From the IMG/VR virus record IMGVR_UViG_3300040770_000079, positions 1 through 39,701 of that record: DNA of 39,701 bases; one strand, given 5' to 3'. Position 1 is the first letter of the stretch, and every line of letters starts with the position of its first letter. The DNA is from a virus. The position numbers and the translations under genes are program-made. Shown piece by piece: positions 11,161-20,878 of the stretch. The notes under the pieces are model-generated. The model did no database searches, was not told the DNA's origin, and was given only the letters and a program-made list of their open reading frames with translations.

Positions 11161-11168
11161 TATATTTG
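11161..11168 (+). promoter_or_regulatory. -7 element TATATTTG of the replication operon
   Basis: Perfect TAnnTTTG with only a weak -33 (TTT at 11139). The predicted transcript starts near 11172, about 140 bases before the first ATG (11313), leaving a long structured leader. Confidence 0.6.
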
Positions 11169-11182
11169 TAGAAATAAATGAA

Positions 11183-11264
11183 GTGAGACGCATTTATAAC
11201 CCGAAAATATTATATAAATCCAATCTGGAAGGCTCGTCTCACATTAGCCAACTTGATTGGATTT
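11183..11264 (+). ncRNA. structured 5' leader, predicted H-type pseudoknot (copy A)
   Basis: GTGAGACG (11183-11190) pairs perfectly with CGTCTCAC (11235-11242). AAATCCAATC (11216-11225), inside that loop, pairs perfectly with GATTGGATTT (11255-11264) beyond it. The interleaved order is an H-type pseudoknot with stems of 8 and 10 bp and loops of 25, 9 and 12 bases. The second stem runs into a T-rich tract (TTTTGTCTTTT), so alone it would also look like a terminator, which hints at attenuation. It precedes the replication operon. The same topology recurs at 18950. Confidence 0.6.
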
Positions 11265-11312
11265 TGTCTTTTATTAAAGTTTTGTTTGTTTTAGCAAAAA
11301 CATTCATAAATT

Positions 11313-11540
11313 ATGGCAAACGTCAAATTAATATTTCAAGGTTCTGAAAAGAGCGAAACTACAGAAACAGAATTACAGGTTTTTCACAACACTTTAGATG
11401 AAATTTATATTTCTATAAATTCAGAAGGTAATTATCCTGCTTTTATTTGTCTTAACAAATCAACAGCGATAAAATTTCATAGAGAATTAAAGAAAAATAT
11501 TTCATTCATAGGAGAGGAGGTCGGAAATGGCAAAAGATAA
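11313..11540 (+). CDS. hypothetical protein, first gene of the replication operon
   Basis: 75 residues. A beta-rich N-terminus (VKLIFQGSE, TETELQVFHN) is followed by FICLNKSTAIKFHRELKKNI. I associate this pattern with small proteins found before DUF6291 genes in Bacteroidota phages, function unknown. It overlaps the next gene by 14 bases. The GGAGAGGAGG run near its end resembles a Shine-Dalgarno site for the next start, unusual in this genome. Confidence 0.5.
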   Translation: MANVKLIFQGSEKSETTETELQVFHNTLDEIYISINSEGNYPAFICLNKSTAIKFHRELKKNISFIGEEVGNGKR

Positions 11541-18612: not shown

Positions 18613-18645
18613 ATGAAATCATTAATTAAACTTTATGATTTATGA
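18613..18645 (+). CDS. 10-residue leader peptide overlapping the TerS-like start
   Basis: MKSLIKLYDL, whose TGA overlaps the next ATG as ATGA. Position directly behind a -7 element suggests a coupling leader. It may equally be chance. Confidence 0.25.
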   Translation: MKSLIKLYDL

Positions 18646-18938
18646 AAGAGGACGGAAGAAAGAACAACGGAGGTAATAAAAACGCAGGAAGAAAGCCTAA
18701 AGCAGACGAGATAAGAACTATTGAAACAATGGACGCTGTAATGGCACCAATTGAAGCGTGGCAAGCATTAGCTACTAAAGTTAAAGATGGTGACGTACAA
18801 GCTCAAAAAACATGGTTAAATTACCGTTATGGATTACCAAAGCAAATAGTAGAGCAAACAAATATTAATATAGAAGAAAAAGATTTAACCTCAGAGGAAA
18901 TAAAGTTGATTAAAGATAATATAACCGTTAAATATTAG
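18642..18938 (+). CDS. terminase small subunit-like protein
   Basis: 98 residues. A basic N-terminus (NNGGNKNAGRKPKADE) is followed by a helical core with WQALATKVKDGDVQAQKTWL and RYGLPKQ, a pattern of short TerS-like proteins in Bacteroidota phages. TerS proteins recognise phage DNA and hand it to TerL. Location just upstream of terL (separated by the HNH gene) supports the call, but the protein is shorter than most TerS proteins. Confidence 0.6.
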   Translation: MKEDGRKNNGGNKNAGRKPKADEIRTIETMDAVMAPIEAWQALATKVKDGDVQAQKTWLNYRYGLPKQIVEQTNINIEEKDLTSEEIKLIKDNITVKY

Positions 18939-18946
18939 TATCTTTG
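18939..18946 (+). promoter_or_regulatory. TATCTTTG element before the HNH/terL leader
   Basis: Perfect TAnnTTTG starting at the base after the TerS-like stop. The predicted transcript start (about 18950-18953) coincides with the first stem of the pseudoknot leader. No TTG at -33. Confidence 0.5.
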
Positions 18947-18949
18947 AAT

Positions 18950-19002
18950 CTCACCACAACTAACTTATTAATCCCTTTCGTTCGTGGTGAGCGTTTGGGA
19001 TT
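18950..19002 (+). ncRNA. structured 5' leader, predicted H-type pseudoknot (copy B)
   Basis: CTCACCAC (18950-18957) pairs perfectly with GTGGTGAG (18984-18991). AATCCC (18970-18975) in its loop pairs with GGGATT (18997-19002) beyond it. Stems are 8 and 6 bp and loops 12, 8 and 5 bases. The second stem runs into TTTTATT. The ATG of the HNH gene is 10 bases further on, so folding could hide its ribosome site. The topology matches the leader at 11183 although the sequences differ. Confidence 0.6.
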
Positions 19003-19011
19003 TTATTCATT

Positions 19012-19497
19012 ATGGAAGAATTTATAGAAATAAAAGGATATGAAGGTATTTATTCTGTTAGTAATTTAGGTAACGTAAAAAGAATTACTAGCAATAAATT
19101 ATTAAAATTAACTACTTTTAAAAACGGTTACAATTATGTCAGTTTGTCTAAAGAGGGTAAAGTTACTAAATACACTATTCACGGATTAGTTGCTAATTCG
19201 TTTTTATGTCATATAAACGACGGAACAAATAAATTAGTAATAGACCATATCAATGCGGTAAAAACAGATAACAATGTTTTAAACTTACAATTAGTTACAA
19301 ATAGAATTAATTGTTGTAAAGATAAAGATAAAAGTAATTGTACTAGTAAATATATAGGCGTAAGGCTTAATAAAGGTAAGTTTGAAGCTAATATAAGGTT
19401 AAAGGGTACTAGAAAGTATATAGGTCGTTTTGATAATGAGATAGATGCTTATAACGCCTATAAATTTGAATTAAATAAAATAAATGAGCTTAACTAA
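19012..19497 (+). CDS. HNH homing endonuclease with NUMOD4 and AP2-like domains
   Basis: 161 residues in the classic order: NUMOD4 (FIEIKGYEGIYSVSNLGNVKR, residues 4-24), HNH core (H57 in TIHGLVANSF, then D78-H79 in VIDHINAVKTDNNVLNLQLV) and an AP2-type DNA-binding end (SKYIGVRLNKGKFEANIRL, RKYIGRFDNEIDAYNAY). Such enzymes cut specific DNA and spread by homing, often beside terminase genes. It lies between the TerS-like gene and terL and overlaps the terL start by 14 bases. No intron is visible, so it is free-standing. Confidence 0.9.
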   Translation: MEEFIEIKGYEGIYSVSNLGNVKRITSNKLLKLTTFKNGYNYVSLSKEGKVTKYTIHGLVANSFLCHINDGTNKLVIDHINAVKTDNNVLNLQLVTNRINCCKDKDKSNCTSKYIGVRLNKGKFEANIRLKGTRKYIGRFDNEIDAYNAYKFELNKINELN

Positions 19498-20878
19498 TAA
19501 CGAAAAGGTTTTAAAGGTTATGTGTGAGGAGGACTTTATGTTTTTCGCACGATATATCTATAAAGAAAATCACAATAGGTTATTTAAAAACGCTGAGCAT
19601 TTAAATATAATAGCAAATAAATTAAGGGATGTTTTTGACGGAAAGTGTAAAAGGCTTGTCATTAACATCCCTCCGTAGCTTAGATACGGTAAGACAGAGT
19701 TAGCAGTTAAGTGCTTCATTGCTTACGGTTTAGCCATTAACCCACAATCAAAATTTATTCACCTTAGTTACTCAGACGATTTAGCATTAGATAATTCAAG
19801 TCAAACAAAGGAATATGTAGAAAGTGAATCATTCCAAAAGTTTTGGCAAATGAAGCTAAAAAAGGACGCTTCTGGTAAAAAGAAATGGTTTAATGAAAGT
19901 GGAGGCGGTGTATACGCTACTGCTTCGGGTGGTGCAATTACTGGATTTGGTGCAGGTGTAGCAGATAGTAAAATATTCAGTGGCGCAATTATAATAGATG
20001 ACCCTTTAAAGCCAGATGATGCCAATTCTGAGGTAAAAAGAAGTGCAGTCAATGAAAGATACAACTCTACAATAAGAAGCCGTGTAAATGACCGTGATAC
20101 GCCTATCATAGTAATTATGCAAAGATTGCACGAAGAAGATTTAAGTGGTTTTCTTTTAAATGGTGGTAGCGGTGAAGAATGGGAACATTTGTGTTTGCCC
20201 GCATTGGATGAAGAAAATAAACCGTTATGGGAAGAAAAGCACAACTTTGATGAATTAGAGCAGATTAGACAAGCGAACCGTTATAACTTTTCTGGACAAT
20301 ACATGCAAACTCCTTCACCTGCTGAGGGTGGTGAATGGAAAAAAGATTGGTTTCAGTTTGTAGATAAATCAGAAGTGCCAATAGGTAAATTAAAGTGGGA
20401 ATTAATAATTGATGGTGCGTATACTAAAGATACAAAGAATGACCCTAGTGGTTTTCAAATTGGTGCTAAATGGGATAATAACTATGTTATTTGGTCTAGT
20501 ATCGATAAATACTTAGAAATGCCAGAACTATTAAAATTCTTGCCTAATCATATTATTTCAAGCGGTCTTGACGTTGTAATGTCATTAGTAGAGCCTAAAG
20601 CTTCTGGAAAGTCTTTAGTTCAGTTAATTAGGCAACAGACAAAGTTAAATATATCAGAAATAAAAAGTACATTTGTAAATAGTTCTAAAATAGATAATGC
20701 ACGTACTTGTTCGCACTTTATTGAAGGTGGTAGGGTTATATTGGTTAAAGGCGCTTGGAATGAAGCGTTTTTAAACCAAATAGCTATGTTCCCAAATGGT
20801 AAACACGACGAACACATAGATTTAACATGCTATGGTATAGAGCGTAATTTGATAGGTAGTGACTTTTTCTTTTTCTAA
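19484..20878 (+). pseudogene. terL: terminase large subunit, interrupted by an in-frame amber codon in the P-loop
   Basis: The frame gives a 464-position TerL. The N-terminal part ends VINIPP, then TAG (19676-19678), then LRYGKTELAV, so the stop sits just before the Walker A lysine. Relatives read IPPRxGKTE, so TAGCTT looks like a two-codon insertion. Walker B follows (GAIIIDDPLKPDD, about residue 170), then the nuclease domain (IIDGAYT, DVVMSLVEPKASGKS, HDEHIDL). The rest of the frame is intact. Without readthrough no ATPase is made: the first downstream ATG (19850) lies beyond the P-loop. It may be a defective gene, an assembly error, or a leaky amber codon (TAG-C context). Confidence 0.85.

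Follow-up and report, generated by a model that had tools for sequence, protein, structure and literature searches.

An interleaved-stem leader ahead of a phage HNH gene as a candidate transcription attenuator

RNA hairpins are known to control the T4-type homing endonucleases I-TevI, I-TevII, I-TevIII, segB and the Aeh1 mobE (PMC2988022, PMC3014915). In the T4-type arrangement, read-through transcripts fold into a single hairpin that masks the ribosome-binding site, and transcription from an internal late promoter avoids it (PMC2988022, PMC3014915). A pseudoknot in the T4 gene 32 leader serves as a protein-binding translational operator that lies 67 nt from the AUG (PMC3014915). Bacteroidota are without Shine-Dalgarno sites (PMC6847099).

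The leader considered here, at 18950-19002, lies in a window of 39,701 nucleotides (the whole stretch of DNA that was analysed), which comes from a virus record with Bacteroidota-type promoter boxes. Like the T4-type hairpins, it gives a mobile endonuclease gene a structured 5' region that closely precedes the start codon and would restrain or time the nuclease. Leaders of this kind differ from them in that the promoter precedes the entire structure, the stems interleave or kiss, a U-tract closes the hairpin, and replication genes have leaders of this type as well. The resemblance to T4 gene 32 is that a pseudoknot of interleaved stems lies in the phage mRNA leader, ahead of the gene, although the leaders of the family described below have a terminator-like tail, a variable sequence and several types of downstream gene.

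Loop-loop contacts between RNA hairpins occur in pT181-type attenuation and in ColE1, and in pT181 they are tied to a terminator hairpin. The partner loop there sits on a separate antisense RNA, whereas both loops of the family leaders are on one RNA. The put element of HK022 is a structured RNA directly behind phage early promoters that has a conserved sequence and causes antitermination; the family element, by contrast, includes a terminator-like hairpin and varies in sequence. A literature search, with most subscription papers outside its reach, found no such leader. The combination of features and their distribution appear new; a structured leader, an attenuator and kissing loops are known principles.

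The HNH gene and its leader between terS and terL

The features of the locus are as follows:
18642..18938, plus strand: probable terminase small subunit gene (terS), upstream of the insertion, so named because it precedes terL and resembles the ORF that immediately precedes terL in L002 and other relatives
18939..18946, plus strand: sigma-A type -7 box TATCTTTG (TAnnTTTG), from the sequence and the box position in F. psychrophilum
18950..18957, plus strand: 5' arm of stem S1, CTCACCAC, at the predicted RNA 5' end, from stem pairing; without a flanking P1 hairpin
18970..18975, plus strand: 5' arm of S2/P2, AATCCC, of the terminator-like hairpin, from stem pairing and fold
18979..18983, plus strand: 5' arm of P3, CGTTC, the inner stem of hairpin 2, in the MFE and centroid folds
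18984..18991, plus strand: 3' arm of S1, GTGGTGAG, made up of the apical loop GTGGT (18984-18988) and a GAG common to P3
18989..18993, plus strand: 3' arm of P3, GAGCG, from the fold
18997..19002, plus strand: 3' arm of S2/P2, GGGATT, from pairing and fold
19001..19007, plus strand: U-rich tract TTTTATT at the hairpin end, from the sequence; a T-rich tail is kept across the family
19012..19497, plus strand: NUMOD4/HNH_3 free-standing homing-endonuclease-like gene, of which the leader is the 5' UTR
19484..20878, plus strand: terL, with its start overlapping the HNH 3' end and a TAG interruption at 19676-19678

In the nearest relatives (e.g., L002, with a terL that is 91% identical) terS leads straight into terL, without leader or HNH gene, and this empty site means that the two are an insertion, most simply read as a mobile cassette that carries the endonuclease gene under a promoter of its own. 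The original prediction had the leader heading the packaging operon, which had to be given up, as terS precedes the leader and the terS of relatives runs into terL. A packaging-operon leader conserved among terL relatives was likewise ruled out, since the relatives are without such a leader there. A Pfam search with the probable terS gave no match.

Two other candidates were set aside. Rfam gave no match to a group I intron around the HNH gene, which moreover is flanked by two genes and does not interrupt one; an RNA of an RNA-guided nuclease (HEARO/omega-like) was dropped as the main reading, since replication genes have the same leader in front. As a separate observation, the Walker A region of terL (19670-19690) has a 6-nt insertion, TAGCTT, giving PP*LRYGKT against PPRYGKT in relatives. 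The resulting in-frame TAG splits terL into ORFs 19484-19678 and 19850-20878, and its origin may be a mutation, a variant of the assembly or a scar left close to the HNH insertion.

Both stems, their interleaving and the TAnnTTTG box are exactly as originally claimed: S1 has eight Watson-Crick pairs and S2, which is the same stem as P2, has six. S1 starts 3 nt past the TTTG end of the box, which lies just upstream as in the family, and the middle loop is 8 nt. Behind GGGATT, TTATTCAT has 5 T in 8 nt, again in keeping with the family U-tract, and the tract itself (TTTTATTC) is short. The element had also been said to lie close to the ATG, and so it does, with 9 nt between the end of S2 and the start codon at 19012. 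From the position of such a box in F. psychrophilum, at -12 to -5 (PMC9723704), transcription is predicted to start around 18951.

The best nested fold of the leader is hairpin 2 alone, AAUCCC-UUU-CGUUC-GUGGU-GAGCG-UUU-GGGAUU, at -13.9 kcal/mol. Its stability is high for its composition (z of -3.95 for 18964-19011, with 0 of 200 shuffles as good), and S1 on its own is worth about -10.9 kcal/mol. The inner stem CGTTC/GAGCG, present in this MFE fold and missed by the original prediction, overlaps the S1 arm by the 3 nt GAG; the full S1 takes GAG out of P3, which puts the two stems in partial competition, while a contact of 5 bp (ACCAC/GUGGU) would suit both. In the fold of 18948-19011, which stops just before the AUG, nucleotides 19003-19011 are unpaired, unlike a T4-type hairpin with the start region or ribosome-binding site in a stem.

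A hairpin with an A-rich 5' side and a U-tract, close to a promoter and ahead of a gene, reads as an intrinsic terminator used as an attenuator, and we lean slightly towards the proposal that the element leads the message of a mobile HNH cassette and acts as a promoter-proximal transcription attenuator. The RNA would start at about 18951, and its first bases (the CUCACCAC segment) would be complementary to the apical loop of the P2 hairpin at 18970-19002 with its inner stem P3. Together with the U-rich tract, this P2/P3 hairpin resembles an intrinsic terminator located immediately ahead of the start codon. S1, in pairing the RNA 5' end with the loop, would compete with the inner stem, or else lock the hairpin in a pseudoknot, and would thereby set the frequency of polymerase read-through into the endonuclease gene, limiting the endonuclease. 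Inferred in this proposal are the point at which the RNA begins, the termination event, whether S1 favours or hinders it, and any factor behind the control.

A family of leaders behind TAnnTTTG boxes

The second leader of the window belongs to the canonical group of the family, and its features are these:
11161..11168, plus strand: promoter box TATATTTG of the canonical leader
11174..11197, plus strand: P1 hairpin, ATAAATG (11174-11180) with CATTTAT (11191-11197), the loop being the 5' arm of S1, GTGAGACG (11183-11190)
11216..11275, plus strand: hairpin 2, with P2 (AAATCCAATC/GATTGGATTT), P3 (GGCT/AGCC) and the 3' arm of S1, CGTCTCAC (11235-11242), followed by a U-tract
11313..11540, plus strand: conserved 75-aa gene behind the canonical leader, adjoining the replication gene at 11527

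Among 1949 TAnnTTTG sites scanned (113 loci, 1.08 Mb), 36 interleaved pairs scored at least 40, against 2.5 expected from shuffles. The common plan that emerged is a P1 hairpin at the predicted start, with a loop of 7-10 nt that is the 5' arm of S1, then an A-rich linker, hairpin 2 and a U-tract; hairpin 2 consists of P2, an internal loop and P3, and its apical loop holds the 3' arm of S1. P1, on which the search did not depend, was seen in 42 of 47 elements (8.3 expected), and P3, also outside the search criteria, in 28 of the 47 (10.1 expected). Since both arms of S1 lie in hairpin loops in the canonical members, S1 is a loop-loop kissing helix, and the P1 and P3 of the leader at 11183, which the original prediction had missed, make it so there as well. 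In terms of the attenuator, the canonical members, including that at 11161-11275, would present the 5' segment in the P1 loop and form S1 as a kissing helix.

The tail was unscored in the search, and all 24 elements scoring at least 42 have 5 or more T among the 8 nt that follow P2; across the 47 elements, the mean is 4.55 T among the 6 nt after P2. P1 starts a median of 4 nt after TTTG, that is, at the predicted +1. This last feature, shared by the leader at 18950 in that S1 lies at the predicted first nucleotide, is what one would look for in a 5'-end stabiliser, a structured terminus that shields the phage transcript from 5'-dependent decay. We consider that function improbable, as it leaves the U-tract, the A-rich linker and the loop complementarity unexplained.

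Apart from a GA-type internal loop (31 of 47 elements, against 4.8 expected), which is the sole conserved loop, the sequence of the family is hypervariable. This variability, and the terminator-like hairpin built into the module, speak against a put- or nut-like element that would act in cis on RNA polymerase as an antiterminator with a terminator within the module. That reading draws on the position of the leaders, immediately behind promoters at replication operons and HNH genes, and we hold it to be very improbable. Rfam release 15, a collection of curated families of structured RNAs that covers bacteria and phages, had no family at its gathering score, either in the window or among 18 loci that mostly contain the element, and with lax thresholds gave just chance-level matches at both window leaders.

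Alignment with related phages, put forward as a check along with the original prediction, bore out the canonical leader. In the 8 alignable relatives every cell of S1 is paired, and four of the eight pairs have changed on both sides. For the whole canonical structure, 0 of 500 shuffles match on pairing plus covariation and all slid controls are beaten. The leader at 11161 scores 110.9 bits against the canonical-group model, and most relatives of the 75-aa gene retain the entire leader structure with differing sequences. Between this leader and the 75-aa gene, at 11276-11312, lies a conserved short inverted repeat that comes in two exchangeable versions (TGTTTGTTTTAGnAAAAACA or GGTTATCTTTAAACC); the repeat is at the same place in many of the loci L088-L109 and is possibly a regulatory site.

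Leaders of this family are also found ahead of HNH genes. In a first set, 17 of 63 upstream regions score at least 36 against 0.16 expected; a later set of 65 further regions, under identical scoring settings, gave 18 against 0.12 expected. The MAFFT alignment of these diverse leaders was too poor for pair counts, so that the stems were tested element by element. The element occurs at two places in the isolated Flavobacterium phage tooticki6-1, ahead of an HNH gene and ahead of a 75-aa-type gene, and interleaved stems lie ahead of the HNH genes of Polaribacter phages P12002L and P12002S. Genes downstream of family leaders, as named from sequence, also include replication initiators, a helicase and a methyltransferase. 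A single-sequence search with the HNH protein of the window found no relatives, while alignment-based searches succeeded; a genome scan gave few HNH genes, with no obvious leader upstream of the best two.

Several side observations concern other HNH genes. In L020 (1648-1764), terL is directly followed by an HNH gene that has a leader of this kind, so that this gene lies on the opposite side of terL from the insertion in the window. The NUMOD4/HNH genes of L127, L134, L135, L141 and L149 are without such a leader and are probably expressed from the transcript of the gene upstream, in the manner of the promoterless seg/mob genes of T4. A second class of HNH leader has S1 right at the promoter, then the U-tract, with the 3' arm of S2 beyond the U-tract. 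It is found at L224 (2378-2497), L236 (2381-2500) and L254 (2378-2497), and also in L238, L261, L110, L111, L222, L218 and L275. In L236, for example, it reads TGGAG..CACGTT..CTCCA-TTCTTTTTTT-AACGTG, and it looks like a terminator with a loop complementary to downstream sequence.

The HNH leader of the window as a family member

The two leaders of the window had been described as alike, with the same pseudoknot topology. The order of the stems and the middle loop (8 nt at 18950, 9 nt in the canonical leader) do agree, S2 differs in length (6 against 10 bp), and the shared topology holds for S1 and S2 only, the leader at 11183 being a P1/P2/P3 kissing complex and that at 18950 lacking P1. No P1 hairpin surrounds the 5' arm of S1 at 18950, where the best flanking stem is 3 bp and is matched by 23% of shuffles. 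The linker is 12 nt, against about 17-28 in canonical members, the internal loop is UUU/UUU in place of the GA type, and the canonical-group (R1) covariance model gives only 8.4 bits (E of 0.53 in 351 bases). The leader differs from the family in its 5' half, and shares with it the promoter box, S1, P2, the U-rich tail, the 8-nt middle loop and the position before an HNH gene. It is filed as a compact, atypical member of the kissing-terminator leader family, not a proven canonical one. No relative with an HNH gene at the 18950 site was found, and the covariation figures given above are those of the canonical-leader relatives, not of this leader.

Shuffled leaders had been named as a possible refutation, and their outcome is divided. 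In a free search for interleaved stems behind the 18950 promoter, 9 of 300 dinucleotide shuffles are equal or better, which makes the pair mildly unusual, so that sequence statistics by themselves are too weak to carry the claim. Under the family geometry (middle loop of 4-14 nt, T-rich tail, 6-30 nt to the ATG), with limits that were chosen after the family and this leader had been seen, 0 of 3000 shuffles reach its score. The free search, the weak model score and the missing P1 speak for a chance S1 pairing in an ordinary UTR with a terminator-like hairpin. We give this little credence in view of the 0 of 3000 and of a position and 3' half like those of dozens of HNH leaders.

The main rival to the attenuator is translational control, which had been suggested from the nearness of the ATG. 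A pseudoknot or hairpin by the start codon would block ribosomes, and would be switched by formation of S1/S2 or by upstream read-through transcripts. In HNH leaders P2 mostly ends 8-24 nt ahead of the ATG, a range into which the leader at 18950 fits, and initiation in F. johnsoniae is sensitive to structure at about -20 to +20 (PMC6847099). There is also the precedent of the homing endonucleases (PMC2988022, PMC3014915), and a U-tract before the AUG could affect translation too. Against this, the start codon and the preceding 9 nt are outside the stems, the same leader lies 42-54 nt from the ATG of the 75-aa gene, and translational control has no need of a conserved U-tract. In favour of the attenuator, T content at -16..-7 is 0.61 ahead of leader-bearing HNH genes and 0.30 ahead of 1808 ORFs of the same loci. 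We rate control of translation as unlikely; the U-tract conserved in the best elements points first to transcription termination.

The further suggestion of one regulatory logic used twice is supported, with the same leader family before a replication-operon gene and before HNH genes, both in the window phage and in tooticki6-1. We would put at about even the chances that these are undescribed, widespread riboregulators of Bacteroidota phages, in which an RNA's 5' end captures, in cis, the loop of its terminator hairpin (through a kissing hairpin in the canonical form), with fast compensated sequence change, and which are common to replication operons and mobile homing-endonuclease cassettes. 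Gene control in Bacteroidota phages is poorly known, and one structural definition now covers leaders of replication operons and of homing endonucleases in many of them. As the element is present in phages of cultured hosts, such as Flavobacterium phage tooticki6-1, it can be put to the test. The leaders suggest a second way, beside the T4 hairpins, for mobile nuclease genes to carry their own control RNA.
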